DNA of 64,000 nt from NCBI RefSeq assembly GCF_000716595.1, contig NZ_JNXC01000005.1, positions 1-64,000 of the forward strand, read 5' to 3'. This DNA is from Saccharothrix sp. NRRL B-16314. GTDB taxonomy: Bacteria > Actinomycetota > Actinomycetes > Mycobacteriales > Pseudonocardiaceae. Positions 1,285 through 47,460 of the stretch are shown here, in pieces; position 1 is the stretch's first letter, and every line of letters begins with the position of its first letter. Under the pieces are notes generated by a model, which saw only the letters and a list, made by a program, of their open reading frames with translations, was not told where the DNA came from and made no database searches. A program made the translations under genes and the position numbers.

Positions 1285-1367
1285 GTGAGTCCTACGTTCA
1301 GAACCCGTGAGTCCTACGCTCAGAACAACCATGTCCTACGTTCGGAACGCCTGAATTCAACGCTCAG
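1285..1367 (+). repeat. Modular intergenic repeat, single array A-A-C-D
   Basis: The units are A (GTGAGTCCTACGTTCAGAAC, 1285-1304), A-like (1307-1326, one change), C (ATGTCCTACGTTCGGAAC, 1331-1348) and D (GAATTCAACGCTCAG, 1353-1367). The array fills the gap between convergent stops at 1281 and 1369. The same unit types recur near 24.7 and 47.4 kb. The A unit is next to the lipoprotein gene's stop. Confidence 0.85.
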
Positions 1368-1368
1368 G

Positions 1369-2883
1369 TCACGCCGACCGCCCCAGCACGGCCATCGCCG
1401 CGTTGTGACCGCCGATCCCGCTGACCCCGCCACCACGCCGCGCCCCCGCCCCGCACACGAACAGGTTCGCCACGTCCGTCTCCACGCCCCACCGGCCGAC
1501 CTCGTCCTCCGCCTCCGCGAACGGCCACGCCAGCTCGTCGTGGAAGATGTTGCCGCGAGGCAGCCCCAGCTCCGCCTCCAAATCCAACGGCGTGCGCGCC
1601 TCCAGGCACGGCTCACCGTCGGCGTCCCTCGCCAGGCAGGACTCGATCGGCTCCTCCAGGTACGCGTTCAACCCGGCCAGGTACCGCCCCACCAACTCGC
1701 CCCGCAGCACCGCGTTGTCCCGCTCGAACAACGCCGCCGGCGTGTGCAACCCGAACAACGTCAACGTGTGCCACCCCCGCGACACCAGCTCCGGCGCGAG
1801 GATCGACGGATCGGTCAACGTGTGGCAGTACATCTCCGCGGGCAGCACCGACGGCACCAGCCCCGCCGCGCTCTCCCGGTACGCGCTCTCCAACTGCCCG
1901 TACGACTCGTCCAGGTGCAACGTCCCCGCGAACGCCACCCGGGCGTCCACCCCGCTCCGGAACCGCGGCAGCCGCTCCAGCAGCATGTTCACCTTCACCT
2001 GGCACCCCTCGGCCACCGCCGGCGCAGGCCGACCGCGCAACCGGTCCAAAGTGGACGGAGCAACCCCGGCCAGCACGAACCGTGCGCCGACCGTGCGCCC
2101 GTCGTACTCGACCTCGCCCACGACACCGTCCGCGTCCACCCGAGTGACCTCGGCGCCGGTGACGACCTCCACCCCGGCCTCACGCGCCACCCGCGCGAGC
2201 TCCCCCGTCACCGCGCCCATCCCGCCGACCGGCACCTGCCACTCCCCCGTGCCGTTGCCGATCACGTGGTAGAGGAAGCACCGGTTCGCCCGCAGGTCGT
2301 GCAACGACGTGTGCGTGCCGATCAACGCGTCGGTGGCCACCACCCCGCGCACGACGTCATGCGCGAACAGCTCCTCCAACGCCTCGCCCAACGGCCGTTC
2401 CACGACCTGGTCCCACAGCCGCGCGTCGACCCGCCGCCGAACGTCCGCACGCGACCGCAACGGCTCCAACATCGTCGAGGACACCGCCCCCGCCAGCACC
2501 TCCAAGGAGGCGTACCACCGCCGCCACCGGTCGTACTCCGCGTCCGAACCGGTCAACGCCCGGAACGACGCCGCCGTCGCCTCACCCGGATCGCGCTCCA
2601 CCAGCAGGTCACCCGCGGGCGTGTAGGACGACGCCGCCCGTGACCGCAGCGACACCCGCAGCCCGAGGTCCGCGACGATCCGGTCCGGCAGCAGGCTGAC
2701 CAGGTACGAGTACCGCGACAACCGCGCCTGCACCCCCGCGAACGCCGTCGAGCTCACGGCCGCGCCTCCGACGTGGTCGAGCTTCTCCAGCACCAGCACC
2801 GTGCGTCCCGCCCGCGCCAGGTACGCCGCCGCCACCAGCGCGTTGTGCCCGCCGCCGACCACCACCACGTCGTAGGTATCCAC
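1369..2883 (-). CDS. FAD-dependent oxidoreductase, phytoene desaturase-like
   Basis: This 504-residue protein opens with a dinucleotide-binding fold: [20 protein letters not shown] followed by [13 protein letters not shown] (about residues 4-45). The Gly-rich loop reads GGGHNA rather than the classical GxGxxG, as in the carotenoid desaturase/PYROXD2 group. A C-terminal FAD-contact segment ends in [13 protein letters not shown]. It is likely a soluble amine or carotenoid-type oxidase/desaturase. The substrate is unknown, and no phytoene synthase or other carotenoid gene lies nearby. The ATG complement is at 2881-2883. The gene converges on the lipoprotein gene, with the modular repeat between them. 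Confidence 0.75.
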
Positions 2884-2963
2884 CCGCCCGACTCAACCAG
2901 ATCCAAGATCACGCAGCTACCTCCGTAACCTGGACAGCGGGCACACGAGCGAAGGAGCTTCAC

Positions 2964-3788
2964 ATGGGGCGAGTCACGGTGCGTCGCCCGGTGGTGACCT
3001 ACGCGAGCGGAACGTCCCGCAAGCGGGTCGACGCGCTGGCCGCCGAGGAGCCGCTGGAACTGCGGGTGGGCGGCAAGGCGCTGACCGTCACGATGCGCAC
3101 ACCCGGCCAGGACGTGGAGCTGGCGCACGGCTTCCTGCTCGGCGAGGGCGTCATCGGCGGCCTGGCGGACATCGCCGTGGCCCGGTTCTGCGAGGGCACC
3201 GGGCCGGACGGGATGAACACGTACAACGTGCTGGACCTGACCCTCGCGGACGGCGTCGCACCGCCCGAGGTCGGCGTGGAGCGGAACTTCTACACGACCT
3301 CGTCCTGCGGCGTGTGCGGCAAGGCGGCGCTGGACGCGGTGAAGTTGAAGACCCGCTTCTCCCCCGCCGCCGACACGTCCAAGGTCGACGTCGGGGTCCT
3401 GTCGGCGCTGCCGGACGCGCTGCGCGAACGCCAGAAGGTATTCGCCTCGACCGGTGGCCTGCACGCCGCCGGGCTGTTCACCACGTCCGGTGAGGCGCTG
3501 GTGGTGCGCGAGGACGTGGGCCGGCACAACGCGGTCGACAAGGTGCTCGGCTGGGCGGTCCTGCAGGACCGGGTCCCGCTGGGCGGGACGGTGCTGGTGG
3601 TGTCCGGGCGGGCGTCGTTCGAGCTGGTGCAGAAGGCCACCATGGCCGGTGTGCCGGTGCTCGCCGCCGTGTCCGCGCCCTCGTCGCTGGCCGCCGAGCT
3701 GGCCGAAGAGCAGGGCGTGACGCTGATCGGCTTCCTGCGCGGCGACTCGATGAACGTCTACACCGGCGCGGAGAGAGTGGTCGCGTGA
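2964..3788 (+). CDS. fdhD: FdhD, sulfur carrier for formate dehydrogenase maturation
   Basis: FdhD passes sulfur from a cysteine desulfurase to the bis-MGD molybdenum cofactor of formate dehydrogenases. The 274-residue protein shows the family hallmarks: an early PLELRV segment, [13 protein letters not shown], the sulfur-transfer cysteines in [10 protein letters not shown] (about residues 113-117), and the C-terminal [14 protein letters not shown] and [14 protein letters not shown] blocks. The ATG is preceded by AAGGAG. The stop overlaps the GTG of the following CoA-transferase gene, so the pair is translationally coupled. No formate dehydrogenase structural gene is in the window, so its client is elsewhere. 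Confidence 0.93.
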
Positions 3789-4951
3789 GACCGCTGGACG
3801 GCGTGCTCGTCGTCAGCCTCGAACAGGCCGTCGCCGTCCCGTACGCCACCCGGCTGCTGGCCGACCTCGGCGCACGCGTGATCAAGGTCGAACGGCGGGA
3901 CGGCGGCGACTTCGCCCGCCACTACGACACCGCGTGCGGCTCGGTGTCCTCCTACTTCGCCTGGGCGAACGTCGGCAAGGAGTCCCTGACGCTCGACCTG
4001 AAGCACCCGGCGGGACGCGAGGTGCTGGACAAGCTCATCCCGACCGCCGACGTGGTCCTGTGCAACCTGTCACCCGACGCCGCGCGTCGACTGGGTGTGG
4101 ACGCTTCCTCACTCCGTGCGGTGAAACCCGATCTGGTGGTCGGCGAGCTCTCCGGCTACGGCGACGAAGGCCCGTACGCGTCACGCAAGGCGTTCGACGC
4201 GCTCGTGCAGTCGGAGGCGGGGCTGGTCGAGCTGACCGGGGACGGTGACGTCACGGCACGCGCGGGCATCTCGGTCGCCGACATCGCGGCCGGCGTGCAG
4301 CTCCAGTCCGCCGTGCTCGCCGCCCTCCTGCACCGCGCCCGGACCGGTGAGGGCGCCACCCTGCGGCTGACGCTGTTCGAGGCGATGACCGAGTGGATGC
4401 ACCAGCCGATGCTCTACGCGGCGGGCACCGGCCGGGCCGCGCCGCGCACCGGCGCGCACCACCCGAGCATCGCGCCGTACGGCCCGTTCCCATGTGCGGA
4501 CGGCGCCGTGCACCTCGCCGTGCAGAACGACCCGCAGTGGCGCCGGCTGTGCACCCTCCTCGGCAGACCGGACCTCGCGGACGACCCCCGGTTCGGCACC
4601 GTCAGCTCCCGCGTGGCCCACCGCGCCGACCTGCACGCCGAGCTCGACTTCACCGCTTGGACGGCGGCCGACCTGATCGACGCGCTGGACCGCGCCGACG
4701 TCCCCGCCGCCCGCACCCGCAGCGTCGCCGACCTGCCCGACCACCCCCAGCTCACCGCACGCGACCGGCTCGCCCGGGTGCCGGTGCCCGACGGTCGCAT
4801 CACCGTTCTCCGCCCGCCCGTCGACTCCACCGCCTGGGAGTGGACGCCCGGCTCGGTGCCCGCGCCCGGCGAGCACACCGACCACGTTCTGCGCGGGCTC
4901 GGCTACTCCGAGGAGCGGATCGCGGAACTTCGGGCCGAGTCGGCGATCTGA
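3785..4951 (+). CDS. CaiB/BaiF-type (class III) CoA-transferase
   Basis: This 388-residue protein begins [20 protein letters not shown] and continues [20 protein letters not shown], the standard opening of formyl-CoA/carnitine CoA-transferases. The probable catalytic Asp lies in [13 protein letters not shown] (about residue 137). Class III enzymes swap CoA between carboxylates through an aspartyl-CoA thioester. Substrates cannot be predicted. The GTG at 3785 overlaps the fdhD stop by 4 nt. Coupling to fdhD could hint at oxalyl/formyl-CoA chemistry feeding formate dehydrogenase, but no oxalyl-CoA decarboxylase is present, so this is speculative. Confidence 0.85.
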
Positions 4952-5006
4952 CGAAACACCCGCTCCACCTCGCGCGATGTGAGGGGAGAATGGGCTTGGG
5001 GAGAAC

Positions 5007-5873
5007 ATGGTCAGCAGGCGAACGATGCTCGGCGCACTGGGTGCGGGAGTCGCAGCCACCGTGGGTGTCACGGCGGCGTGGCACAGCGATGCCCCGTTCG
5101 GTGAGGCGATGCGGCACGCTGTGGGCGTGGCCGGACCGGTGCCCGCCGTGAAGCGGGCCGTCGTGCAGGTCGAACGGGTGCGCTCCGAGTTCCGGGGCCG
5201 TGACGTCGACCTGCTCACCATGGTGCCGCCGGGTGTGCCGACCGAGGGCCTGCCCATGTCGATCCTGCTGCACGGCCGCTACGGCAACGCCCGCCTGGCC
5301 GCCGTGGGCGGTATGCCCGAGGTGCTGGTGGCGGCCGTCGGTCGAGGCCAGGTCCCGCCGTTCGGGTTCGTCGCGGTGGACGGCGACAACCACTACTGGC
5401 ACGAGAACCTGCCTGGTGACGACCCGATGGCGATGCTGCTGGAGGAGGTTCCCCGGTGGCTGGCCGAACGCGGGTACGGCGCGCCGTTCGCCTGCACGGG
5501 GGTGTCCATGGGCGGCTTCGGCGCGCTGCTCTACGCACGCCGACGGCACGAGCGGCGTGACCCGGCCAAGGCCATCGCCGCCATCGCGCCCGCCCTGCTC
5601 ACCGACTGGGCCGAGATGGTGAAGCGCGACGCGTTCAGGAGCCCGGAGCAGTGGGCCTCACTGGACCCGCTGAAGAACCTCGACAAGCTCGGCACCGCCC
5701 CGACCGGCGTGTGGGTCGGCGACAAGGACCACTTCATCGAGGGAACGCGGAAGTTCATCGCGGGCACCAAACTCGCGGTCGCCTCGATCAGCCCCGGCGG
5801 CCACGACGACGGCCTCTACCGCAAGGTCGTCCCCGACGTCATCCGCTTCCTCGGCAAACGCGTTCCCCGCTGA
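5007..5873 (+). CDS. Secreted esterase-family alpha/beta-hydrolase (Tat-type signal)
   Basis: The 288-residue product starts MVSRRTMLGALGAGVAATVG, a twin-arginine signal followed by a hydrophobic core, so export of a folded enzyme is likely. The mature part has the layout of the putative esterase (antigen 85/esterase D) family. It shows SILLHGRYGN near the N-terminus, a nucleophile elbow GVSMGGFGALL (Ser about residue 168), a DKDHFIEG segment and a possible catalytic His in SPGGHDDGLY. GGAGAA-type ribosome-binding bases precede the ATG. A mycolyl- or acyl-transferase activity is possible, but esterase is the safer call. Confidence 0.75.
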   Translation: MVSRRTMLGALGAGVAATVGVTAAWHSDAPFGEAMRHAVGVAGPVPAVKRAVVQVERVRSEFRGRDVDLLTMVPPGVPTEGLPMSILLHGRYGNARLAAVGGMPEVLVAAVGRGQVPPFGFVAVDGDNHYWHENLPGDDPMAMLLEEVPRWLAERGYGAPFACTGVSMGGFGALLYARRRHERRDPAKAIAAIAPALLTDWAEMVKRDAFRSPEQWASLDPLKNLDKLGTAPTGVWVGDKDHFIEGTRKFIAGTKLAVASISPGGHDDGLYRKVVPDVIRFLGKRVPR

Positions 5874-5924
5874 CCCTCACAGGACTTCCACAGAACGTCC
5901 ACACGGCTGTGGTTGTTTGGCTGC

Positions 5925-6668
5925 ATGCTCACGCGACCGGACCCCATCACCTACCTGGACCACGTGGCGGAAGCGGGCCGCGCCTACAAGCAGCGCCTGC
6001 TGGACTCCCTGGACCTCCGGCCCGACCACATCGCGCTGGACGTCGGCTGCGGCCCCGGCACGGACCTGCCCTCCTTGGCCGCACGCGCGGGCGCCGTCAT
6101 CGGCGTCGACCTGGACCCGGCCATGGTCGAGGAGGCAAGACAACGGGCCGCCGGACTGCCCGTCGAGGTACGGCTGGGCGACGCCCACGCGCTACCCCTC
6201 GACGACCGCAGCGTGGACCGTGCGCGCGTGGACCGGGTCCTGCACCAGGTCGCCGACCCTGCCGGTGTCCTGGCCGAACTGCGCCGAGTCCTGCGCCCCG
6301 GAGGACGTGCGGCGCTCGCTCAACCCGACTGGGAAACCCTCGCCGTCGACCCCGGCTCGGTGGCCACGAACCTCGCGTTCAACCGGTTCGTCTGCGACCG
6401 GATCATGACCAACCCCGTCGTCGGCCGCCAACTGGCGCGGCTCGCCGCAGGAGCCGGCCTGACCGTCGTGACGATCGGCGCCGACACCCTCCTGCTGCGG
6501 GACTTCCCCGTCGCCGACGAACTCCTCGGCCTGACCCGCAACACCCACCGGGCCGTCGAAGCGGGCCGCATCACCCGCCCCGCCGCCGACGCCTGGCTGG
6601 CCGATCTGGAGACCGGCCCGTTCCTGGCCTCGTTCACCCTGTTCAGGGTGGTGGTCAGCGCGGAGTGA
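5925..6668 (+). CDS. Class I SAM-dependent methyltransferase
   Basis: SAM-binding motif I is clear in IALDVGCGPGTDLPSLAARA, followed by VIGVDLDPAMVEEA and the motif II/III region ALPLDDRSVDRARVDRVLHQ and LRRVLRPGGRAAL. The protein is a methyltransf_11/UbiE-like enzyme of 247 residues. Acceptor specificity lies in the variable C-terminal half and cannot be read. I chose ATG 5925; an in-frame TTG at 5913 is possible. Its 3' end overlaps the convergent hydrolase gene by 14 bp. Confidence 0.8.
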   Translation: MLTRPDPITYLDHVAEAGRAYKQRLLDSLDLRPDHIALDVGCGPGTDLPSLAARAGAVIGVDLDPAMVEEARQRAAGLPVEVRLGDAHALPLDDRSVDRARVDRVLHQVADPAGVLAELRRVLRPGGRAALAQPDWETLAVDPGSVATNLAFNRFVCDRIMTNPVVGRQLARLAAGAGLTVVTIGADTLLLRDFPVADELLGLTRNTHRAVEAGRITRPAADAWLADLETGPFLASFTLFRVVVSAE

Positions 6669-7248
6669 GCGGCACGCGCCCGCTGCGGACCCACTTCAGC
6701 ACGGCGCCCCACGGCCCGTACCCGGCGTCCACGTTCAGGTGCGCGCCGCCCACGATGACGTCCAGGTCGACCCGCAACTCCTCGGCCAACGCCTTGGCCT
6801 GCGGCAACGTGCAGTACGGGTCGCCCTCGCCGACCACCAGCCGGGTCGAGACCGCCGCCCGCCGCACCGCCGTCGGATCGAGCGCGGGGTGCAGGAAGCC
6901 GGAGATCAACGGCTCGTCGGCGAAATCCGGCGCGGGCGGCGCGACCAGCAGCACCCGGTCCACCCGCAGCGCCTCGTCGAACTGCCCGGCCGCGTGGTGC
7001 AGCCACAACAGCCCGGCGAGCGAGTGCGCGACGACCACGCGTTCGGCCGCGCCGGCCTCGGGCATCGCGGCCAGGTGCGACCGCAGTTCCGCCAGCCACA
7101 CCGGCAGCTCCGGCGCGTCGGGTGCGCTGAACTGGGGCAGGTCCACCGCCCCACCGTGGTGGGCCAGTTCACCTGCCAGCCAGTTCTGCCAGTGCGTCGG
7201 CCCGGAACCGCCCAGGCCGTGCAGGATCAGCGCGTGCGGGAGGGTCAA
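6655..7248 (-). CDS. RBBP9/YdeN-type serine hydrolase
   Basis: This 197-residue alpha/beta-hydrolase has an oxyanion segment ALILHGLGGSGPTHWQNWLA. The nucleophile elbow is VVVAHSLAGLLWLHHA (about residues 75-90). The C-terminal catalytic His region is GGAHLNVDAGYGPWG. These match the RBBP9/YdeN family of small cytoplasmic serine hydrolases, whose substrates are generally unknown. It lies 1 bp downstream of the clpX stop on the same strand, so it may be co-transcribed with the Clp operon. Confidence 0.85.
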   Translation of the reverse strand: MTLPHALILHGLGGSGPTHWQNWLAGELAHHGGAVDLPQFSAPDAPELPVWLAELRSHLAAMPEAGAAERVVVAHSLAGLLWLHHAAGQFDEALRVDRVLLVAPPAPDFADEPLISGFLHPALDPTAVRRAAVSTRLVVGEGDPYCTLPQAKALAEELRVDLDVIVGGAHLNVDAGYGPWGAVLKWVRSGRVPLTPR

Positions 7249-7249
7249 C

Positions 7250-8530
7250 TCACGCCGACTTCTCGCGGCGCTCCCGGCGCGAGGGCTGCCGGGCCACGAT
7301 GGTCGGGTTGACGTTGTCCTTCACGGTCTGCTCGGTGATGACGACCTTGGCGACGTCCGTGCGGCTCGGGATGTCGTACATCACCGGCAGCAGGACTTCC
7401 TCCATGATCGCCCGCAGGCCGCGGGCGCCGGTGCCGCGCAGGATCGCCTGGTCGGCGACGGCCTCCATCGCGGTCCGGGTGAACTCCAGTTCGACGCCGT
7501 CCATCTCGAAGAGCTTCTGGTACTGCTTGACCAGCGCGTTCTTCGGCTCGGTCAGGATCCGGACCAGTGATTCCTTGTCCAGGTTCGTGACGCTCGCGAC
7601 CATCGGCAACCGGCCGATGAACTCGGGGATCAGACCGAACTTGATCAGGTCCTCGGGCATCGAGTCGGCGTAGTAGTCCGCCGCGTCGACCTCGGCCTTG
7701 GTGCGGACCTCGGCGCCGAAGCCCAGACCGCGCTTGCCCACCCGGTCCTGGATGATCTTGTCCAGACCGGCGAAGGCGCCCGCCACGATGAACAGCACGT
7801 TCGTCGTGTCGATCTGGATGAACTCCTGGTGCGGGTGCTTGCGACCGCCCTGCGGCGGCACGGAGGCGGTGGTGCCCTCGAGGATCTTCAGCAGCGCCTG
7901 CTGCACGCCCTCGCCCGACACGTCCCGCGTGATCGACGGATTTTCACTCTTTCGAGCGATCTTGTCGACCTCGTCGATGTAGATGATGCCGGTCTCGGCG
8001 CGCTTGACGTCGTAATCCGCCGCCTGGATGAGCTTGAGGAGGATGTTCTCCACGTCCTCACCCACGTAGCCCGCCTCGGTCAGCGCCGTGGCGTCCGCGA
8101 TGGCGAACGGCACGTTCAGCATCTTCGCCAGCGTCTGGGCCAGGTAGGTCTTGCCGCAGCCCGTCGGGCCGAGCATGAGGATGTTCGACTTGGCGAGCTC
8201 CACGCCGTCGTCGCGGCCCTCACGCCCGCGGTCACCCGCCTGGATGCGCTTGTAGTGGTTGTAGACCGCCACCGAGAGCGTGCGCTTGGCCTCGTTCTGG
8301 CCGATCACGTACTGGTCGAGGAACTCGTGGATCTCGGCGGGCTTGGGCAGCTCGTCGAGCTTGACGTCACCGGCCTCCGCGAGTTCTTCCTCGATGATCT
8401 CGTTGCAGAGGTCGATGCACTCATCGCAGATGTAGACACCGGGGCCGGCGATGAGTTTTTTCACCTGCTTCTGGCTCTTACCGCAGAAAGAGCACTTCAG
8501 CAGGTCGCCGCCGTCACCGATACGTGCCAT
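7250..8530 (-). CDS. clpX: ClpX, ATP-dependent unfoldase of the ClpXP protease
   Basis: ClpX unfolds tagged proteins and feeds them to ClpP1P2 in the cytoplasm. The 426-residue protein starts [18 protein letters not shown]. Its zinc-finger cysteines are C13, C16, C35 and C38. Walker A is GPTGCGKT, the pore loop GYVGEDVE and Walker [11 protein letters not shown], followed by the ClpX C-terminal helical domain. A longer frame exists upstream, but the MARIGDG start at 8530 matches the family. It lies 207 bp downstream of clpP2, a gap large enough for its own promoter. Synteny tig-clpP1-clpP2-clpX supports the call. Confidence 0.97.
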
Positions 8531-8737
8531 GACCGCTGACCTCTGTCCCCTCCGGCGCACGACCTGGTGAAGTGCGCCTGACTACTGATGTGGCGAGAGC
8601 CCGCTGGACGCGGGGTCCGCCCGTTCCCCTCGACGGTACCTGTCCTACCCGCCTGTGCGGGAGGACCAGCGTGCCCCCGACACACCGAACCGAGCAGGAC
8701 CCCTGGTCGGCTCGGCGTGTCGGACGCCACGCCGGTG

Positions 8738-9364: not shown

Positions 9365-9392
9365 TTCAGGTCTCCTGGTGCTCTGCTCGCGG

Positions 9393-10100: not shown

Positions 10101-10103
10101 GTT

Positions 10104-13997: not shown

Positions 13998-14071
13998 TCG
14001 GGGCGACAGGATTTGAACCTGCGACCCCCCGCTCCCAAAGCGGGTGCGCTACCAAGCTGCGCCACGCCCCG
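13998..14071 (-). tRNA. tRNA-Pro (anticodon TGG)
   Basis: A 74-nt cloverleaf: acceptor CGGGGCG pairs with CGCCCCG, the anticodon TGG is complementary to 14035-14037, and the T-arm GGTTCAAATCC is intact. The discriminator base is A and CCA is not encoded. Confidence 0.95.
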
Positions 14072-14132: not shown

Positions 14133-14206
14133 GCGGGTGTAGCTCAATGGTAGAGCCCCAGCCTTCCAAGCTGGTCATGCGGGTTCGATTCCCGTCACCC
14201 GCTCCA
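14133..14206 (+). tRNA. tRNA-Gly (anticodon TCC)
   Basis: Acceptor GCGGGTG (14133-14139) pairs with CACCCGC (14196-14202). Anticodon TCC is at 14165-14167 and the T-arm contains GGTTCGATTCC. CCA is encoded at 14204-14206. It is divergent from tRNA-Pro; both lie close to tig, as they do in mycobacteria. Confidence 0.95.
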
Positions 14207-24437: not shown

Positions 24438-24596
24438 ATGTCCGACTCATTCGACGCCAGACGCATTCAGGTCGTTACCGGGGTTGTGCGCGACGCGGAA
24501 TTCGGCGGCCTGACGCCGCAGGCGCCCACCCGCCGGCGGGACAACCGCCCGCACCTGCGCCGCACGTCCGACGACGCCAGCGTCGGCTCCGCCTAA
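24438..24596 (+). CDS. Small hypothetical protein, 52 residues
   Basis: ATG 24438 follows GGGGGTAAGC and opens MSDSFDARRIQVVTGVVRDA, then an Arg/Pro-rich basic C-terminus (TRRRDNRPHLRRTSDDASVG). It has no membrane segment or cysteine. A GTG at 24411 could add nine residues. The peptide is strongly basic and might bind nucleic acid or a membrane. The evidence for translation is the ribosome-binding site and the position immediately before the large repeat cassette, whose first A unit starts 5 bp after this stop. Confidence 0.4.
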   Translation: MSDSFDARRIQVVTGVVRDAEFGGLTPQAPTRRRDNRPHLRRTSDDASVGSA

Positions 24597-24601: not shown

Positions 24602-24805
24602 GCGAGTCCTACGTTCACGTCCCGTGAGTCGTACCTTCGGAACCCCCGTGTCCTACGTTCGGAACCCCCGAGTTCAACGCTCAGAACAAGATCGACTGTT
24701 CTGAGCGTTGAATTCAGGGGTCCTGAACGTAGGACACGGTGGTCCGGAAGGTACGACTCACGCGTTCTGGACGTAGGACTCACGCGTTCTGGACGTAGGA
24801 CTCAC
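24602..24805. repeat. Modular repeat, double inverted cassette A-B-C-D/D-C-B-A-A
   Basis: Left arm units: A 24602-24620, B 24624-24643, C 24648-24665, D 24670-24688. The 8-nt loop is 24689-24696. Right arm units, inverted: D 24697-24715, C 24721-24737, B 24743-24761, A 24764-24783 and A 24786-24805. Each unit type lies opposite its own kind, giving a hairpin of about 200 bp between convergent stops (24596 and 24810). B differs from A by two complementary core changes (GTCGTACCTTC against GTCCTACGTTC) that are present on both arms. Confidence 0.9.
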
Positions 24806-24809: not shown

Positions 24810-26165
24810 TCAGCGTTGGATGGACTTGAGTTCGGTGAACTCGTCCAAGCCGTGTCGGCCGAACTCGCGGCCGGTGCCGGACTGGCGGTAGCCGCCGAAC
24901 GGGGCACTGGTGTTGAACGCGGCGCCGTTGATGTCCACCTGGCCGGTGCGCAGGCGTTTCGCCACGGCGAGCGCGCGATCCGGATCGGCCGAGAAAACGG
25001 CGCCGCCCAGGCCGTAAATGGTGGAGTTGGCGATGCGCACGGCATCGTCCTCGTCGTTGTACGGCATCACGGACAGGACCGGGCCGAAGATTTCCTCCTG
25101 CGCGATGACCATGTCCGGGCGAACGTCGCCGAACACGGTCGGAGCCACGTGGAAGCCGCGCTGAGTAGGCGCGTCCGGACCACCCAACGCGAGCTTCGCG
25201 CCCGCCTCGACACCGCTCCGGATGTACCCGACCACGCGATCGCGCTGGGCCGCCGACACCGCCGGGCCGATGCGGGTCGCAGGAACGGCCGGATCGCCCG
25301 GCTCGTACTTCGACGCGGCGGCCACGGCGATCTCCAACGCCTCGTCATGACGCGACGACGGCACCAGCAGCCGGGTCCACGCGCTGCAAGCCTGACCGTT
25401 GTTCATGAACGCGTTCGCCACGCCGATCTTCACCGCGCGCGTCACGTCCGCGTCGTCCAGCACGACGTTCGCGGACTTGCCACCCAGCTCCAACGCCACC
25501 CGCTTGACCGTCTCGGCGGCCAGCGCGGATACCCGCCGACCGGCACGCGTCGAACCGGTGAACGACACCATGTCCACCAGCGGGTGGGCCGCCAGCGCCT
25601 CTCCGACCACCGGCCCCATGCCGTGGACCAGCGAAAACACGCCCTCGGGCACACCGGCTTCGACCAGGATCGAGGCCAGCAGGTCCGCCGTCATCGGCGC
25701 GAGCTCACTCGGCTTGAGCACCACCGCGTTACCCGCCGCCAGCGCGGGCACGACCTTCGCGACCATCTGCTGGAGCGGGAAGTTCCACGGCGTGATGGCG
25801 GCGACGACACCGATCGGCTCGCGCAGCACCAGCGAGTTGCCGATCTCCTCGCCGGAGAAGTAGCCGCCCTCGATGACGTCGGCGACTCCCCGCGCGATCC
25901 CGACGGGGTTCGGCACCTGCACCCGGGTCGCGAACGTGATGGGCGTGCCCATCTCCGCCGTCATGGTGGCGGCCAGCTCGTCGGTCCGCGCGACCATCGC
26001 GTCGGCCACCCGCCGCACCAGCGCCAGCCGCGTGTCCAACGACGTCGCCGCCCACTCCGGGAACGCGGCAACGGCCCTGGTCACGGCCGCGTCCACGTCG
26101 GCGGGAGTGCCGGAGCGGACGGTGCCGACGACCTCTTCGGTGGTCGGGTTGACGACCTCGATCAC
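24810..26165 (-). CDS. NAD(P)-dependent aldehyde dehydrogenase
   Basis: This 451-residue member of the ALDH superfamily shows an NAD-binding ITPWNFPLQQM segment, the general base Glu in LELGGKSANVV (about residue 225), the catalytic Cys in NNGQACSAWTRLLVP (about 260) and the C-terminal YGLGGAVFS and PFGGYRQSGTGREFG motifs. It is slightly shorter than the usual 470-500 residues because it starts directly at IEVVNPTTEEVVGTV. It oxidises an unidentified aldehyde. A 13-bp inverted repeat lies just upstream (26184-26228). Confidence 0.92.
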   Translation of the reverse strand: MIEVVNPTTEEVVGTVRSGTPADVDAAVTRAVAAFPEWAATSLDTRLALVRRVADAMVARTDELAATMTAEMGTPITFATRVQVPNPVGIARGVADVIEGGYFSGEEIGNSLVLREPIGVVAAITPWNFPLQQMVAKVVPALAAGNAVVLKPSELAPMTADLLASILVEAGVPEGVFSLVHGMGPVVGEALAAHPLVDMVSFTGSTRAGRRVSALAAETVKRVALELGGKSANVVLDDADVTRAVKIGVANAFMNNGQACSAWTRLLVPSSRHDEALEIAVAAASKYEPGDPAVPATRIGPAVSAAQRDRVVGYIRSGVEAGAKLALGGPDAPTQRGFHVAPTVFGDVRPDMVIAQEEIFGPVLSVMPYNDEDDAVRIANSTIYGLGGAVFSADPDRALAVAKRLRTGQVDINGAAFNTSAPFGGYRQSGTGREFGRHGLDEFTELKSIQR

Positions 26166-37056: not shown

Positions 37057-37072
37057 GTGGAGGACTGAGCAG

Positions 37073-40068: not shown

Positions 40069-40081
40069 CCCCGCGGTCGTC

Positions 40082-40115
40082 CACGGGCTGCCCGGTTGTC
40101 CACAGGCAGCCCGTG
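40082..40115 (+). terminator. Terminator-like hairpin after the GH13 gene
   Basis: Perfect 11-bp arms CACGGGCTGCC (40082-40092) and complement (40105-40115) with a 12-nt loop, 14 bp after the stop. Confidence 0.65.
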
Positions 40116-40229
40116 AGCGACGTAGAGCGTCGGCCCTGCCTCATCTTCGAGGGCACGTTCCCGGTGATGACGGCATGCCTGATGTCCCGCTGGTACCGGC
40201 GAAGTGCGACAGGTCCAGCCGTCGCCGGC

Positions 40230-40664: not shown

Positions 40665-40730
40665 GGACGCGGGTCGAACGTGAAAGCCGGGGCCGCCTGG
40701 CAGGAACCCCTGCGCAGCGCGTGCGCCCCA

Positions 40731-41360
40731 TCAGACCAGCAGGGGCAGCATGGAGTGCCGGCGGCGGACTACGGCACCGAAGCGGGCGTCGATGCGCATC
40801 CACGAGTCGGTGGCCGTGATCCGCACGTCGTCACCGCCCAGGAAACCCATGCCGGACAACGCGAACAGGCACCGCATCGGCACCTTCACGTCCAGCCCCG
40901 ACCCGCTCACCGTGATCACCGTCTGGTCCAGCAGCGACGCGGGCGGCGTGCCGCGTGGGCCGGCGTTCTCGCGCGCCACCTCCACGCCCTTCTCCGCCAG
41001 CTCCGACACGACGCTGCCGGGCAGCCGGTCCACCGGCAGCCAGCCCGTCGACGGCGGCAGGGCCGAGCGCCACATCATGTCCCGCGCCGGACCGGGGTCG
41101 ACGGTTTCGCTGCGCACCACGGCCAGGCCGGTGAGCAGGTCCGTGCCGGACACCGTCACGTCGTTCGGGGTGATCTGCCCGGCGACGGTCCGGGTGGCCA
41201 GCGCGTCGAACGGCGTCGCCACCCAGGCGTCCACCAGGCCGCCGGACGCGCGGTTGCGCAGCCGCACGACCGCTTGGCCTTCCAGCCGCACGGCTCGGGC
41301 GACGAAAGCGCCGAGGTCGTCCCGCTCCGCGGGGTCGGCGAGGACCAGCTCAGGCACCAT
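40731..41360 (-). CDS. Conserved hypothetical protein of the thioesterase operon
   Basis: The 209-residue soluble protein starts MVPELVLADPAERDDLGAFV and contains QAVVRLRNRASGGLVDAWVA, TPFDALATRTVAGQI and KVPMRCLFALSGMGFLGGDD. No catalytic motif is recognisable. Its start overlaps the thioesterase gene by 11 bp. In mycobacteria a hypothetical gene (Rv2474c, from memory) also follows the thioesterase (Rv2475c), so the pair is probably ancestral. Confidence 0.7.
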   Translation of the reverse strand: MVPELVLADPAERDDLGAFVARAVRLEGQAVVRLRNRASGGLVDAWVATPFDALATRTVAGQITPNDVTVSGTDLLTGLAVVRSETVDPGPARDMMWRSALPPSTGWLPVDRLPGSVVSELAEKGVEVARENAGPRGTPPASLLDQTVITVSGSGLDVKVPMRCLFALSGMGFLGGDDVRITATDSWMRIDARFGAVVRRRHSMLPLLV

Positions 41361-41829
41361 TGCCTCCGGCACGCCAGCCCGCGAGGAAGTCGCGCTCGGC
41401 TTCGAGAAGACGGCGCGGACGTCCGGCCGTCAGGTTGTAGGGCACCATCAGGGTCTCCGCCTTCGTGACCACGGCGCTGCCCTCCCGGCGGTCTTCGCGC
41501 ACCGCGTAGTCGAGCGTGAACGACGCCGACTTCAGTTCCCGCACCGACATCTCCACCACGATCTCACCGCCCGTGAACATCAACGGCGCGAGGTAGTCCA
41601 CCACCAGCCTGGCCACCACCACGCCCTTGGCCATGTCCGGCACGCCGTGCCGGGTCGCCTCGGTGAACAGCAGGTCGATCCGTGCCTCTTCGAGCAACGT
41701 CACCGTGTTGGCGTGGTTGACGTGACCGTAGGCGTCCATGTCCGACCAGCGCGGTCGAACACCCGTGACGAACACACCCAACTTGAACGCGCCTCCCGGT
41801 TCCGATGCGGTGGCAGTGACCCTATCCAC
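41350..41829 (-). CDS. Hotdog-fold acyl-CoA thioesterase (YbgC/FadM-like)
   Basis: The 159-residue single hotdog domain has the catalytic-type motif VRPRWSDMDAYGHVNHANTV followed by LLEEARIDLLF, which is diagnostic for 4-hydroxybenzoyl-CoA thioesterase/YbgC-like enzymes (Asp in SDMDAYGHVNH). It hydrolyses short or medium acyl-CoAs in the cytoplasm. GTG 41829 lies 3 bp beyond the preceding stop, so it is in the operon of the winged-helix gene. Confidence 0.88.
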   Translation of the reverse strand: MDRVTATASEPGGAFKLGVFVTGVRPRWSDMDAYGHVNHANTVTLLEEARIDLLFTEATRHGVPDMAKGVVVARLVVDYLAPLMFTGGEIVVEMSVRELKSASFTLDYAVREDRREGSAVVTKAETLMVPYNLTAGRPRRLLEAERDFLAGWRAGGNGA

Positions 41830-41832
41830 GTG

Positions 41833-42777
41833 CTACACCCAGGTTAAGGCCGCATCCACCTGGAGGAATCGGCCCAGGTCCGCGACCTCCTCGGCGATCT
41901 CCCCGGCGAGCTCGGGCCGCGCGCCGAACGAGTGGACGGCGATCCGCGCGCCGTCCCGCCGCCACACCGCGACGACCTTGCCGTCCACGACGACGTGGGG
42001 CGTGAGGAAGCCACCGCCGGTCTGGACGAGCGGCGCGTGCTCCGGTGCCAGCGCCGACGAGCGGTCGCGGTAGCCGAGCAGGTAGGGGTCGAAGTGGCCG
42101 AGCATGCGGACCGCGCCGTTCGGCTCGGCCGGTTCGCCGGTCACCTCGGGGAGGTCCTTGAGCAGCCGTCTGGGCAGGCCGCTCCACGTGGCGAAGTCGT
42201 CGGGCGTCGCCGGGCCGTAGGCACGCCGGTAGCGCCGCCACAGCTCGTCCACGCCACGCGGTTCGCACTCGATGCGCAGCAGCCGGTAGGTGTCGTCCTG
42301 GCCCCGGCAGAGCACGCCGGAGTTCGCCGCGAACGCCAGCAGGTGGGCAGGGGCCTGCGACTTGGGGTCCAGGACGATGCCGACGTTGGCCAGGCGGCGG
42401 ACGACCTCGGCACGTTCCAGCGGCTCGGTCAGGACTTCGCGGAGCGCGGGTAGCGCGCGCTCGCACAGTTCGTCGGTGAGGCCCAACTGGTCGCGGCGAC
42501 GTCGTCCGGTGGCGATGAAGGTCGGTCCGACGAGGTTCACGACCCACAGGTCGTCCTCGTGGAGCAGGTGGAGCGTCCCGCGCATGGCCCACGTGCGCAC
42601 TAGAGGGCCGTCAAGGGACCGGACACCCCTGGCGCGCGCTGCGAGCCGTGCTGCGGGCATGTCCTGGGCCTGCAAGGCGAAAACGGACCCGAACAGGTCC
42701 GTCACGTCGGTTGCCGGGTGCGAGAGCCGTTGCGCCCGCATCCGCCGGGCCAGGACCTGTTCGACGGACGCGGTCAT
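41833..42777 (-). CDS. Winged-helix DNA-binding domain protein (HTH_42, AlkZ-like)
   Basis: The 314-residue protein starts TASVEQVLARRMRAQRLSHP, then VFALQAQDMPAARLAARARG, the QxQ motif region of the HTH_42 family (AlkZ/YcaQ group). It continues RTWAMRGTLHLLHEDDLWVV and a C-terminal FDPYLLGYRDRSSAL. Some members are DNA glycosylases for alkylated or crosslinked DNA. Its ATG overlaps the lacI stop by 4 bp, so the two are coupled. The link to a LacI regulator looks coincidental. Confidence 0.85.
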   Translation of the reverse strand: MTASVEQVLARRMRAQRLSHPATDVTDLFGSVFALQAQDMPAARLAARARGVRSLDGPLVRTWAMRGTLHLLHEDDLWVVNLVGPTFIATGRRRRDQLGLTDELCERALPALREVLTEPLERAEVVRRLANVGIVLDPKSQAPAHLLAFAANSGVLCRGQDDTYRLLRIECEPRGVDELWRRYRRAYGPATPDDFATWSGLPRRLLKDLPEVTGEPAEPNGAVRMLGHFDPYLLGYRDRSSALAPEHAPLVQTGGGFLTPHVVVDGKVVAVWRRDGARIAVHSFGARPELAGEIAEEVADLGRFLQVDAALTWV

Positions 42778-43766
42778 CTGGGGCGGGCGCCCGTCGAGCC
42801 GCGCACCACCAGCTCGGGCTGGAACACGAACTCCGCGTGCGGTGCGGGGGTGCCGCCGATCTCCTCCAGCAACGCGTGCACGGCGGCCTGCCCCATCGCC
42901 TCGACCGGCTGGCGGATCGTGGTCAGCGGCGGGTCGGCGAACACGATCAGCGGCGAATCGTCGAAGCCGACGACGGAGATGTCGCGCGGGACTGCGAGAC
43001 CGCGCTGACGCGCCGCGCGGATCGCGCCGAACGCCATCAGGTCGCTGCCGCACACGATCGCCGTGCAGCCGCGGTCCAGCAGGGCGTTCGCCGCCGCCTG
43101 CCCGCCCTCGACCGTGAACAGGGAGTGCTCGACCAGGTCGGACGCCTGCGGGCGGACGAGCGTGAAGCCCTCCACCATGCGCTGGGCGGGCACGAACCTC
43201 GGCGGGCCGACCGCCAGCCCGATCGCCTCGTGGCCCAGCTCCAGCAGGTGCGTGACGGCGAGCCGGACGGCCGCCCGGTTGTCCACCGACACGAACGGCG
43301 CGGACACCTGGTCGGTGTACCCGTTGATCATCACGAACGGCACGCCGCGCCCGGCCAGCTTCACGTACCGGTCCTTGTTCGCCGTCGTGTCGGCGTGCAG
43401 CCCGGACACGAAGACGATGCCGGTGACGCCGCGGTCGACCAGCATGTCGGTCAGCTGGTCCTCGGTCGAACCGCCGGGCGTCTGCGTGCACAGCACCGGC
43501 GTGTAGCCGTCGCTGGTCAGCACCTGCTCGATGACCTGCGCGAACGCCGGGAAGATCGGGTTGTTCAACTCGGGGGTGATCAACCCGATCAACCCGGCGC
43601 TGCGCTGGCGGAGCCTGGGCGGTCGCTCGTAGCCGAGCACGTCCATCGCGGCGACGACGGCCTGGCGGGTGCTCGCGGACACGCCTGGCTTGCCGTTGAC
43701 CACCCGGCTGACCGTCGCCTCGCTCACGCCTGCCTGGGTCGCGATGTCACTGAGCCGCGCTGTCAC
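42774..43766 (-). CDS. LacI-family regulator of alpha-glucan use
   Basis: From GTG 43766 the 330-residue protein starts with the LacI helix-turn-helix TARLSDIATQAGVSEATVSR followed by VVNGKPGVSASTRQAVVAAM, then the hinge helix. A periplasmic-binding-protein-like domain (about residues 60-330) has IVCGSDLMAFGAIRAARQRG and VGFDDSPLIVFADPPLTTIR. It lies 11 bp downstream of the GH13 gene. It is the obvious candidate repressor of the divergent glucosidase and amylase genes, probably responding to maltose or a maltodextrin. Confidence 0.92.
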   Translation of the reverse strand: MTARLSDIATQAGVSEATVSRVVNGKPGVSASTRQAVVAAMDVLGYERPPRLRQRSAGLIGLITPELNNPIFPAFAQVIEQVLTSDGYTPVLCTQTPGGSTEDQLTDMLVDRGVTGIVFVSGLHADTTANKDRYVKLAGRGVPFVMINGYTDQVSAPFVSVDNRAAVRLAVTHLLELGHEAIGLAVGPPRFVPAQRMVEGFTLVRPQASDLVEHSLFTVEGGQAAANALLDRGCTAIVCGSDLMAFGAIRAARQRGLAVPRDISVVGFDDSPLIVFADPPLTTIRQPVEAMGQAAVHALLEEIGGTPAPHAEFVFQPELVVRGSTGARPR

Positions 43767-43777
43767 ACCGTGTGACT

Positions 43778-45328
43778 CTACGGGCGCGAGAGCCACACGG
43801 TCGTGTCTGCCGGCACGAGGACGTCCGTGCCTTCAGTAGCGCAACCACCCGACGACAGCAGCACCTCGCCGTCGACCGGCAGCCGTGCCACGTCCGGGCC
43901 GAAGTTCACCACGCACGTGAAAGCGCCCCGGCGGAAGGACAACAGGCCCTCGGGGACCTCCAGCCACTCCACCTCGGAGCCCGCACCCAGATCCGGGTGC
44001 TCGTGCCGCACCCGCAGCGCGCTGCGGTACAGCTCCAGCACCGAGTTCGGGTCGCCCTGCTGCGCGGCGACGCTGAGCCGCGCCCAGTCCGCCGGCTGCG
44101 GCAGCCACGAACCGCCGTCGCCGAACCCGAACGACGGGCCGTCCGCCGTCCACGGGATCGGCACGCGGCAGCCGTCCCGGCCGCGGTCGGTGTGCCCGGA
44201 CCGGACCCACACCGGGTCCTGGAGGACGTCCTCCGGCAGGTCCAGCACCTCGGGCAGGCCCAGTTCCTCGCCCTGGTAGACGTACGCGCTGCCGGGCAGC
44301 GCGAGCATCAGCAGAGCGGCGGCCCGCGCCCGCGCCACGCTCCCGTACCGCGTCACGTGCCGCTGCACGTCGTGGTTGGACAGCACCCACGTCGTCGGCG
44401 CGGACACCGGCGCCATCGCGGCGAGCGAGTCGTCGATGACCTGCTTGAGGTCGGCGGCGGTCCACTCGGCGGTCAGGTAGTGGAAGTTGAACGCCTGGTG
44501 CAGCTCGTCGGAACGCAGGTAGCGGGCGGTGCGCTCCGGGCTCGGCGTCCACGCCTCGGCCACGCCGATCCGGCTGCCCGGGTACGAGTCGAGCACCTTG
44601 CGCCAGTCGCGGTAGATCTCGTGCACGCCGTCCTGGTCGAAGAACGGCAGCGCCTCCGTGCCCAGCAGCTTGAGGTGGCCCGGCGTGCCGACGTCCGGCA
44701 GGCCGTCCGCCTTGATCATCCCGTGGGCCACGTCGATGCGGAAACCGTCAACGCCGAGGTCGAGCCAGAAGCGCAGGACGTCCAGGAACTCGTCCCGCAC
44801 CTCGGGCTGGTCCCAGTTCAGGTCCGGCTGCTCCGGGGCGAACAGGTGCAGGTACCACTGGCCGTCGGCGGTCTTCGTCCAGGCGGGGCCGCCGAAGACG
44901 GACTCCCAGTCGTTCGGCGGCTGGTCGCCCCGGCCGTCGCGGAAGTGGTAGCGGGCGCGTTCGGGAGAACCGGGAGCGGCTTCGAGGGCCTGCCGGAACC
45001 ACTCGTGCTGGTCGCTCGTGTGGTTCGGGACGAGGTCCACGATCACCCGGATGCCGAGGTCGTGCGCGTCGTCCACGAGGGCCTTCGCGTCCTGCGTGGT
45101 GCCGAACTGCGGGTCGACCACGCGGTAGTCGGCGACGTCGTAGCCGCCATCGGCCATCGGGGACTTGTAGAACGGCGTGATCCACACCGCGTCCACGCCC
45201 AGTTCGGCGAGGTAGGGCAGCCGGGAGCGGATGCCGGGCAGGTCACCGACGCCATCACCGTCCGAGTCGGCGAAGCTGCGCACGTAGACCTGGTAGATGA
45301 CGGCCTCGCGCCACCAGTCCTGCGTCAT
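43778..45328 (-). CDS. GH13 alpha-glucosidase / oligo-1,6-glucosidase
   Basis: This 516-residue GH13 enzyme starts MTQDWWREAVIYQVYVRSFA. The catalytic nucleophile is in DGFRIDVAHGMIKAD, the acid Glu in GVAEAWTPS and the third Asp in LSNHDVQRHV. No signal peptide is present, so it is cytoplasmic and hydrolyses imported oligosaccharides released by the secreted amylase next to it. AAGGA precedes ATG 45328. First gene of a minus-strand operon with lacI. A TTGCAA-type operator lies about 50 bp upstream. Confidence 0.93.
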   Translation of the reverse strand: MTQDWWREAVIYQVYVRSFADSDGDGVGDLPGIRSRLPYLAELGVDAVWITPFYKSPMADGGYDVADYRVVDPQFGTTQDAKALVDDAHDLGIRVIVDLVPNHTSDQHEWFRQALEAAPGSPERARYHFRDGRGDQPPNDWESVFGGPAWTKTADGQWYLHLFAPEQPDLNWDQPEVRDEFLDVLRFWLDLGVDGFRIDVAHGMIKADGLPDVGTPGHLKLLGTEALPFFDQDGVHEIYRDWRKVLDSYPGSRIGVAEAWTPSPERTARYLRSDELHQAFNFHYLTAEWTAADLKQVIDDSLAAMAPVSAPTTWVLSNHDVQRHVTRYGSVARARAAALLMLALPGSAYVYQGEELGLPEVLDLPEDVLQDPVWVRSGHTDRGRDGCRVPIPWTADGPSFGFGDGGSWLPQPADWARLSVAAQQGDPNSVLELYRSALRVRHEHPDLGAGSEVEWLEVPEGLLSFRRGAFTCVVNFGPDVARLPVDGEVLLSSGGCATEGTDVLVPADTTVWLSRP

Positions 45329-45373
45329 GGGGGTGTCCTTCCGGATCGGTTCCGCGCCGGTGGGCAATGAAAT

Positions 45374-45397
45374 ACTTTGCAAGTGTTTTCAGCAAGT
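45374..45397. promoter_or_regulatory. Putative LacI/MalR-type operator between divergent glucan genes
   Basis: ACTTTGCAAGT (45374-45384, near-palindromic around TTGCAA) is followed by GTTTTC and AGCAAGT (45391-45397). TTGCAAG-type sites are known operators of Streptomyces amylase and maltose genes. It lies 46 bp from the glucosidase start and 50 bp from the amylase start. Confidence 0.55.
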
Positions 45398-45446
45398 CTG
45401 CCGGCTGGTATGACCTAAAGCACATCCCTGCCAGCGAGGAGACATC

Positions 45447-47114
45447 GTGGTTTCCCTCAGCCGACGCGCCCTGTGCGCGATAGCCGTACTGCTGTTCAGC
45501 CTGTTGGCCGTACCGCAAACTTTTGCAGCTCCGCCATCCGCCAAGGACGTGACCGCGACCCTGTTCCAGTGGCCGTTCTCGCGGGTCGCCGCCGAGTGCA
45601 CGAACGTTCTCGGGCCGAGAGGCTACGGGTTCGTGGAGGTGTCACCGGCCACCGAGCACATCCAGGGCTCCCAGTGGTGGACGTCGTACCAGCCCGTGAG
45701 CTACCGGATCGCCGGACGCCTCGGTGACGAGGCCGCGTTCCGGAACATGGTGGACACCTGCCACGCGGCGGGCGTGAAGGTCATCGCGGACGCGGTGATC
45801 AACCACATGAGCGCCGGGTCGGGGACGGGCACCGGCGGTTCCTCGTACACGAAGTACAACTACCCCGGCATCTACAGCGACTGGGACTTCCACTCCTGCC
45901 GGTCCCACATCAGCGACTACCGCAACCGCGACAACGTGCAGAACTGCGAGCTCGTCGGGCTGTCGGACCTGAACACCGGCAGCGACTACGTGCGCGGGCG
46001 GATCGCGTCGTACCTGAACCACCTGATCTCGCTCGGGGTGGACGGGTTCCGGATCGACGCGGCCAAGCACATGCCGGCGGCCGACCTGTCCGCGATCAAG
46101 TCGCGGTTGAGCAACCCGGGCGTGTTCTGGGTGCACGAAGTGATCTACGGGGCCGGTGAGGCCGTGCAGCCGGGCGAGTACACGGGCTCGGGTGACGTGG
46201 ACGAGTTCCGGTACGCGTACGACATCAAGCGGATCTTCAACAACGAGAACCTGGCGTACCTGAGCACGTTCGGGCAGTCGTGGGGCTACCTGCCGAGCGG
46301 GCAGGCGCGGTCGTTCGTGGACAACTGGGACACCGAGCGCAACGGGTCGACGTTGACGTACAAGGACGGGTCCACCTACACGCTGGCGAACGTGTTCATG
46401 CTGGCATGGCCCTACGGGGCTCCGAACGTGTACTCGGGGTACGAGTTCTCGAACCACGACGCCGGGCCGCCTTCGGGGTCGGAGTGCTACACGTCGGGGT
46501 GGAAGTGCCAGCACCGGTGGACGCAGATCTCCTCGATGGTGCAATTCCGCAACGCGGTCGCCGGGACGTCGGTGGTGAACTGGTGGGACAACGGCGGCGA
46601 CGCGATCGCGTTCGGCCGGGGCGGCAAGGGGTTCGTGGCGATCAACCGGGAGTCCTCGTCGTTGACGCGGACGTTCCAGACCTCGTTGCCGGCCGGGTCC
46701 TACTGCAACGTGCAGAAGGACGGGTGCGTGGCGGTTGCCGTGGGGTCGAACGGGCAGTTCACGGCGACGTTGGCTGCAGGTGAGGCGTTGGCGCTGCACG
46801 TCGGTGCGACGGGTGGGGGCACCCCGCCGCCCGCCGGCACGGCGTCGTTCTCGGTGAACGCGACGACTTCGGTGGGGCAGAACATCTTCGTCGTCGGTGA
46901 CCACGCTTCGCTCGGCGCGTGGAACCCGGCCAACGCGGTGGCCCTGTCGTCCGCCGCCTACCCGACTTGGCGGGGGTCCGTGTCGCTGCCGGCGGGGACT
47001 TCGTTCCAGTACAAGTACATCCGGAAGGATGCGGGCGGGGCGGTGACGTGGGAGAGCGGGACGAACCGCACCGCCACGGCACCCGTGACGCTGTCCGACA
47101 CCTGGCGCAACTAG
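45447..47114 (+). CDS. Secreted alpha-amylase with CBM20 starch-binding domain
   Basis: This 555-residue GH13 alpha-amylase has a Sec-type signal (basic SRR, then hydrophobic [16 protein letters not shown]; cleavage about residue 28). The catalytic domain contains [10 protein letters not shown], nucleophile [13 protein letters not shown], acid Glu in [10 protein letters not shown] and Asp in [20 protein letters not shown] linker leads to a C-terminal starch-binding CBM20 (about residues 460-555), with [20 protein letters not shown] and [20 protein letters not shown]. It degrades extracellular starch. GTG 45447 is divergent from the GH13 glucosidase, with a shared operator. Confidence 0.95.
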
Positions 47115-47195
47115 CACACCGAGCACGTTCCAGCCCGTCAGACGCACACCGACACGGCACACACCGACAACGACAGACACCGGCACGGCACACCG

Positions 47196-47240
47196 CTCGT
47201 CGACCCAGCACTCGTCGACCCAGTGCTCGTCGACCCGGCG
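47196..47240. repeat. Three tandem 15-bp repeats
   Basis: CTCGTCGACCCAGCA (47196-47210), CTCGTCGACCCAGTG (47211-47225) and CTCGTCGACCCGGCG (47226-47240) follow each other without gap, downstream of the amylase gene. The rest of 47115-47396 shows no gene. Confidence 0.75.
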
Positions 47241-47277
47241 CTTGGCGGGGGCGCGCTTCGCAGGCGTCCCCGCCAAG
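47241..47277 (+). terminator. Terminator-like hairpin downstream of the amylase
   Basis: Perfect 10-bp arms CTTGGCGGGG (47241-47250) and complement (47268-47277) with a 17-nt loop. It is about 130 bp after the amylase stop. Confidence 0.5.
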
Positions 47278-47396
47278 GGACCCCTGTCTTGATTTTACCG
47301 ACGGGGTCCGACAATTCCGTGGCTTCGGTTTCCCAAAGCCGGAAGCGCGGCCCGACTCCAAGCCACCTGGACGCGCGACTCCCACTCGACTCGCGC

Positions 47397-47460
47397 GTTC
47401 TGAGCGTTGAACTCATGCGTTCTGAACGTAGGACTCACGCGTTCTGAACGTAGGACTCAC
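47397..47460 (-). repeat. Modular intergenic repeat, single array A-A-D (minus strand)
   Basis: Inverted units: D 47397-47414, A 47419-47438 and A 47441-47460. Both A units are exact complements of the A unit at 1285-1304. The A end lies 14 bp from the stop of the minus-strand regulator, followed by GGGGGG. Confidence 0.85.

Follow-up and report, generated by a model that had tools for sequence, protein, structure and literature searches.

Arrays in the Saccharothrix window

The subject of this analysis is a 64,000-nt stretch of Saccharothrix sp. NRRL B-16314 (contig NZ_JNXC01000005.1, positions 1 to 64,000; hereafter the window), which contains, near the ends of genes, three arrays of short direct repeats built from four unit types designated A, B, C, and D. 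The arrays belong to a repeat family of the Pseudonocardiaceae that is real and has its own grammar, and the units are most likely iteron-like DNA sites for a putative polar protein. Array 1 makes up the whole gap between a TAA stop at 1279-1281 and a reverse-strand stop at 1369-1371. Array 2 is composed of two facing arms, the right one of which comes within 4 bp of the stop codon of the gene at 24810-26165, and array 3 is separated from the stop codon of the gene at 47475-48128 by 14 bp. Coordinates are provided in Table 1.

Table 1. Repeat arrays of the window and the genes that flank them
Feature	Positions	Strand	Composition or annotation
Array 1 (single)	1285-1370	+	A 1285-1304, A 1307-1326 (GCTC variant), C 1329-1348, D 1351-1370; period 22
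Array 2, left arm	24602-24687	+	A 24602-24621, B 24624-24643, C 24646-24665, D 24668-24687
Array 2, spacer AAGATCGACT	24688-24697		10 bp between the facing D units; 20 bp core to core
Array 2, right arm	24698-24805	-	D 24698-24717, C 24720-24739, B 24742-24761, A 24764-24783, A 24786-24805
Array 3 (single)	47397-47460	-	A 47441-47460, A 47419-47438, D 47397-47416
Gene left of array 1	793-1281	+	sub-threshold Pfam match to DUF3558 only
Gene right of array 1	1369-2883	-	FAD-dependent oxidoreductase type
52-aa open reading frame left of array 2	24438-24596	+	without Pfam match; protein search returned its own copy only
Gene right of array 2	24810-26165	-	aldehyde dehydrogenase
Gene left of array 3	45549-47114	+	alpha-amylase type; 282 bp away
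Gene right of array 3	47475-48128	-	LuxR-type regulator

A first-pass annotation of the window had described these three sites as arrays of shared units located between convergent stop codons. Inspection and unit matching confirm that the sites are real and built of the same unit types. The window has 10 recognized unit pairs at 22 bp, whereas none occurs in any of 200 order-1 Markov sequences. The location between convergent stops is firm for array 1. For array 2, the left stop is that of the 52-aa reading frame with only its own copy, and for array 3 the left stop is 282 bp distant, so that there the claim is not firm. The 52-aa reading frame (24438-24596) adjoins a LuxR/NB-ARC regulator gene, with a P450 gene farther out.

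Unit grammar

All four of the proposed unit types exist. The units had originally been given as 18-20 bp; the measured period is instead 22 bp, and the spacing within the arrays of the window is always 22 bp. Type C had been thought to lack an AG, but when the units are placed in register CCGTG replaces the GTGAG of type A at the same length. C is accordingly a substitution variant, and A, B, C, and D are all substitution variants of one unit. In the stretches holding arrays 1 and 3, a repeat search revealed 22-bp repeats in direct orientation, whereas inverted repeats were absent. Among 945 unit-to-unit steps, for which only 20-23 bp was permitted, 866 are of 22 bp, 77 of 21 bp, and one each of 20 and 23 bp. 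The predicted order from A to D holds along the array. In 187 of the 214 arrays pooled from several Saccharothrix species the last unit is of the D type, and of the other 27, which have no terminal D, three carry D elsewhere. Unit chains were assembled with a step of 22 bp only for the grammar and junction counts, 21-22 bp for the dialects, and 20-23 bp for the spacing.

Abundance and dialects

The genome from which the window derives (G000, 8.93 Mb) contains 517 matches (249 + 268) to GTGAGTCCTACGTTC with two or fewer mismatches, and the reversed control gives 0. Within 1.249 Mb of this genome there are 58 arrays, the majority with A first and D last. Arrays are present in 14 of the 25 genomes of the genus, and the number of unit matches ranges from 0 to 464 among the 25 species. 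A looser two-unit profile (expect value, E, of 1e-4) finds 16 of the 25, two of these by one match only, and, in the family as a whole, 37 of 297 genomes from 10 of the 46 genera (Saccharothrix included), some by one weak match. Because the profile was built on the Saccharothrix dialect, the family-wide count is probably too low. With E of 1e-5 and stricter filters, G000 was the sole match among 394 genomes drawn from the class, few of which come from the family. At least five named carriers occur among the matches listed, namely Saccharothrix luteola, S. deserti, S. carnea, Saccharothrix sp. S26, and NRRL B-16348; loci L162 and L218, which are single chance matches in Cohnella and Treponema, were left out. 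One exact unit match lies in a viral contig.

The units differ from genome to genome at letters 5-10 of the core. These read CCTACG in G000, CGAACG/C in G014, CCAACG in G016, G166, and G239, CGTACG in G054, CCGACG in G264, CCCACA/G in G222, and TGAGCG in G251, the samples from other genera being small. The period is 21 bp in G239 and G264. It was considered whether the species without matches conceal another dialect, and this was rejected: in G007 and in G011 alike, 200 kb yielded a single pattern pair, equal to the reversed control, and the repeats listed there by Tandem Repeats Finder (TRF) include no such family. In a second genome, G006, there seems to be a large chromosomal region that arrays avoid: as judged from 100 of its 191 matches, C1:2924536-4502795 (1.58 Mb) holds 0 exact GAGTCCTACGTTCAGRAC matches versus 73 in the next 2.1 Mb.

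Placement at gene ends

Over 934 kb of G000, 14 of the 165 convergent junctions carry arrays, as do 7 of the 543 tandem ones, but none of the 167 that are divergent. The numbers expected from intergenic length are 3.9, 11.1, and 6.0, respectively (P 0.0009 for the absence from divergent junctions). Adding the stretches that were chosen by matches brings these values to 22 of 218, 17 of 746, and 0 of 217. Stretches were picked by the location of matches in C2, in C3, and in C1 past 400 kb, but not in C1:1-400k, C4, or C5. The genes were called with an in-house codon-score finder, such that the junction counts are approximate and some calls, for example that at C2:321231, are doubtful. In a pool that includes named loci, 89 of 160 junctions are convergent, 70 are tandem, and 1 is divergent, and the arrays are thus not confined to convergent junctions as originally proposed. 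The named loci were found by the A-unit pattern, and the stretches of G014, G016, G019, G022, and other genera by the R1 model; the dialect and pair counts are biased accordingly.

It had also been claimed that, read from the neighboring stop, A always comes first. The orientation relative to the stop is not fixed. In inward pairs, a supported stop lies no more than 15 bp from the A end in 63 of 94 arrays, and in outward pairs it is the D end that is this close to a stop, in 25 of 31. For single arrays, a stop is this close to either end in 44 of 69, with A next to it in 30 of the 69 and D in 19. These counts leave out 20 of the 214 arrays, since 400 bp of flank was required. Placement of A next to the stop is therefore only one of two arrangements. 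The stop is often a TGA within the array itself, at -4 in A and at -7 or -14 in D. At C2:33024 of G000, GTTCTGA belongs both to the D unit and to the end of the coding sequence, and the protein has the same ending in G006.

Spacing of facing arrays

The gap between facing arrays is stepped. For 88 facing pairs (three or more units together, gap of 90 bp or less), the core-to-core gaps are 10-11 bp in 7, 20-22 bp in 45, 30-31 bp in 10, 40-43 bp in 7, 51-54 bp in 10, and of other lengths in 9. The resultant at 10.5 bp is 0.825 for all 88 pairs, 0.768 for the 59 distinct spacers, and 0.855 for the 37 distinct spacers with gaps of 35 bp or less, and the largest values among 5000 uniform-range controls are 0.369, 0.367, and 0.498, respectively. 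By bootstrap, the best period is 10.05-10.8 bp (gaps of 35 bp or less) or 10.45-10.9 bp (all 59). The 20-22 bp class alone comprises 23 distinct spacers. At the tsaD junction, five species have gaps of 20-21 bp with five different spacer sequences, and where G000 and G006 share a junction with facing arrays, as they do in four cases, the spacers measure 20/10, 30/11, 11/21, and 11/10 (G000/G006). In other genera, the 19 facing pairs include 6 gaps of 10-11 bp, 9 of 51-53 bp, and one each of 43, 48, 61, and 74 bp. Units of 21 or 22 bp in combination with stepped gaps are what would be shown by sites lying on one face of B-DNA.

Proposed explanation

The arrays may be understood as iteron-like sites on double-stranded DNA at gene ends. 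Each unit of 21-22 bp, or two helical turns, would be a polar site for one copy of a putative sequence-specific DNA-binding protein, and the copies would load head to tail along one face of the helix, with D as the end unit. Facing arrays would be kept at whole helical turns, which would allow the two rows of protein to meet in register. The resulting nucleoprotein block might serve as a boundary between mostly convergent transcription units, a roadblock either to read-through or to supercoiling. Tandem duplication would yield new units and recombination would copy cassettes between arrays, and these processes would therefore lead to genome-specific dialects.

Of the first-pass suggestions for a function (RNA module, nucleoid-organizing site, mobile element), the second is closest to this proposal in that a site acting at the DNA level fits best, although its role as a boundary is conjectural.

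Turnover at orthologous junctions

The main rival explanation is that of a selfish repeat similar to a miniature inverted-repeat transposable element (MITE). Its units would bind a mobilizing enzyme or serve recombination, its insertions would survive only at 3' ends, and the spacer rhythm would serve synapsis or copying. We consider this possible yet doubtful. The patchy presence of the units within the genus favors it, as do the stops that are so often shared with the arrays. G000 and G006 have in common 318 orthologous genes (median identity of 95.5%) and 276 syntenic junctions. Arrays occur at 7 of these junctions in both genomes (that at 319403 looks spurious), at 2 in G000 only, one with a relic in G006, and at 1 in G006 only. 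Three further observations favor the rival. At 306805, a single array in G000 is absent from G006, providing one presence/absence site. At C2:321432 of G000, an array has grown into a coding end: translation of the units (C2:321350-321458) gives the C-terminus of a predicted gene, which in G006 has a different continuation. Among 100 of the 191 matches in G006 there are at least 10 places with units on both strands exactly 138 bp apart, which is what a copied cassette would give.

In several G006 arrays, the outer units are of a TCGAAC dialect and the inner units of CCTACG, as if a newer cassette had been placed into an older array, and at a common junction the units differ between G000 and G006. 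Neighboring units resemble each other more than do random units of the same species (16.50 versus 15.88 of 20 positions, n = 411), and because of this tandem duplication seems to be ongoing. The fixed-size cassettes and the array that overruns a coding end thus lend some support to the earlier suggestion of a mobile element targeting 3' ends. Against mobility, however, stands the retention of arrays at orthologous junctions, and G000 contains neither a Y1 transposase of the type associated with repetitive extragenic palindromic (REP) sequences nor a Mu-type C domain, these being the two enzyme families searched. In addition, the plasmid and phage records gave no match to the facing pair, and no element with internal genes was noticed, though no systematic search for one was made.

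Other repeats are found at the same gene ends. On the 3' side of tsaD in L125 (G004) and L128 (G017), an apparent array remnant is broken by inserts starting with AGAGCGTTATTC; the insert is a short palindrome in G004, whereas that in G017 is apparently an insertion sequence. In relatives, other inverted-repeat elements lie at the ilvE 3' junction, one with CGATTTGACATGG-like ends in several variants and another with CTTGCTTNTGTCATC (L099, L100, L101, L106, L107, L109; L114, L115). The convergent gaps of the genus seem to gather several unrelated repeats.

RNA folding

It was also proposed from the outset that the arrays might be RNA modules at 3' ends. In such a reading, the facing arrays would act as long bidirectional terminator hairpins and the single arrays would bind an RNA protein or Rho. 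The facing pair in the window does fold, at -154.9 kcal/mol (z of -17), inward pairs sit just past stops on the sense strand, and in tandem junctions single arrays lie sense to the upstream gene in 22 cases and antisense in 11. Yet an intrinsic terminator would have a hairpin in every copy, and the four single arrays that were folded do no better than their shuffles, with z values of -0.15 (array 1), -1.13 (array 3), and -1.32 and -0.82 (two arrays of C2). Folded separately, the arms of array 2 likewise fall inside the shuffle range (-0.69 and 0.17), and 76 of 145 array loci have no partner. Furthermore, the identity between facing D units is 16.83 of 20 positions versus 16.84 for shuffled partners from the same species (n = 41), and that between the next units is 15.77 versus 16.14 (n = 48). 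The facing arms thus show no sign of selection for RNA pairing. An RNA hairpin as the common basis of the family was rejected because the folded single arrays are no better than shuffles and the arms lack covariation. The antisense cases would place the complement in the RNA, and spacer steps of ~10.5 bp receive no explanation from RNA. An RNA module is accordingly improbable. A scan of the window against Rfam at the gathering score returned two tRNAs and no other RNA family; the two tRNA genes are opposed, at 13998-14071 (-) and 14133-14203 (+).

Relation to known elements

Bacterial REP sequences and the bacterial interspersed mosaic elements (BIMEs) that they form are found in hundreds of extragenic copies, mainly between convergent and unidirectional genes and often as opposed pairs, according to the portions consulted of two reports (PMC2817692, PMC3733652). 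The arrays described here are likewise numerous, extragenic, often paired, and located at convergent or tandem junctions, that is, at 3' ends with avoidance of divergent junctions. They differ, however, in that a REP is a palindrome of 20-40 bp, whereas the present unit is a polar direct repeat, with single arrays that fold like shuffles, a 22-bp tandem period, end types, and stepped pair spacing. The REP-associated Y1 transposase (RAYT; PF01797) is absent from G000 and occurs in 5 of the 25 genomes of the genus without tracking the presence of arrays, and a link to RAYTs was rejected on these grounds. A nucleoid or gyrase site of the BIME kind, which would ease supercoiling where genes converge and need no protein of its own, would suit the 3'-3' location and the phasing, as for a wrapped or topoisomerase-bound site, and BIMEs are described as binding IHF and gyrase in the part consulted of one report (PMC2817692), but it is very improbable given that the units are not palindromes and that dialects differing among genera are hard to reconcile with a conserved enzyme such as gyrase.

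The iterons of plasmid origins are tandem polar direct repeats of about two helical turns, each read by a protein monomer, and the arrays are likewise tandem and polar with a spacing near two helical turns. They differ from iterons in being dispersed at many chromosomal gene ends, in having end types and facing pairs, and in that no replication context was seen. The sites at which Mu and Tn7-like transposases bind the ends of their elements are about 22 bp in length, polar, several per end, and facing, and in all of these respects the units are similar; facing arrays here, however, enclose only a short spacer, and single arrays are common. The Mu-type C domain (PF09299) is present in 5 of the 25 genomes of the genus, not including G000, and an enzyme of the Mu/Tn7 type was rejected because the domain shows no correlation with the arrays. 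DNA uptake sequences occur in very many copies with clade dialects, often downstream of genes. The arrays are similarly abundant, with dialects and at the 3' sides of genes, but they are built of phased tandem 22-bp units, whereas uptake sequences are about 10-12 bp and do not form phased tandem arrays. Saccharothrix is not known to be competent.

The best-ranked literature matches for such repeats, as far as their text was available, included nothing relevant, and the passages matched by term in the genome papers of Saccharothrix espanaensis and Kutzneria albida (PMC3469384, PMC4210621) contain no such repeat. The view of the first-pass annotation that no named element has this grammar agrees with these matches and with the Rfam scan. 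The grammar is genuine and the family is apparently unnamed.

Assessment of the model

Several observations weigh against the model of phased protein-binding arrays at gene ends. A rhythm of 11 bp, or half a unit, fits the facing gaps nearly as well as one of 10.5 bp (0.750 versus 0.768 for n = 59 and 0.837 versus 0.855 for n = 37), and spacers made of half units are compatible with the data. The spacers partly share ancestry, the 70% redundancy filter is crude, and gaps of more than 40 bp may conceal decayed units. Outward pairs show no clear rhythm, with 20 of 36 gaps at 6 bp, 4 at 15 bp, and the rest scattered. The strong hairpin of the facing pair could terminate transcription. One of the pooled divergent junctions bears arrays. 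In G008, G009, G012, and G021, the ilvE-cobS junction, with 0 to 12 bp between the stops, has no array, and arrays are therefore dispensable there. Even the looser profile finds nothing in nine of the 25 genomes of the genus and only one match in each of two others. Finally, the protein is putative, and we infer its binding.

That the arrays function at the DNA level as phased binding sites is nonetheless probable, and if they do, a role as boundaries is slightly favored. The complete model, an iteron-like array for a putative polar protein with a boundary role, is given a probability of about 0.38, which was set at this value instead of 0.40 because the 11-bp rhythm fits nearly as well. A more specific version, in which the Pseudonocardiaceae would possess a gene-end boundary system with a dedicated protein that polymerizes one way on two-turn sites, a distinct end cap, paired arrays in helical register, and a fast-drifting recognition code, is unlikely as it stands.

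If the arrays prove to be selfish, they would constitute a repeat family notable for its strict spacing and for the unusual unit in which it is copied. If the gene-end boundary system is real, it would be chromosome-wide and undescribed, with species-specific dialects of its sites. Convergent genes in high-GC actinomycetes often lack classic U-tract terminators, and the manner in which such genes are separated is poorly known. For this problem, the arrays provide a concrete site and a route to the protein.

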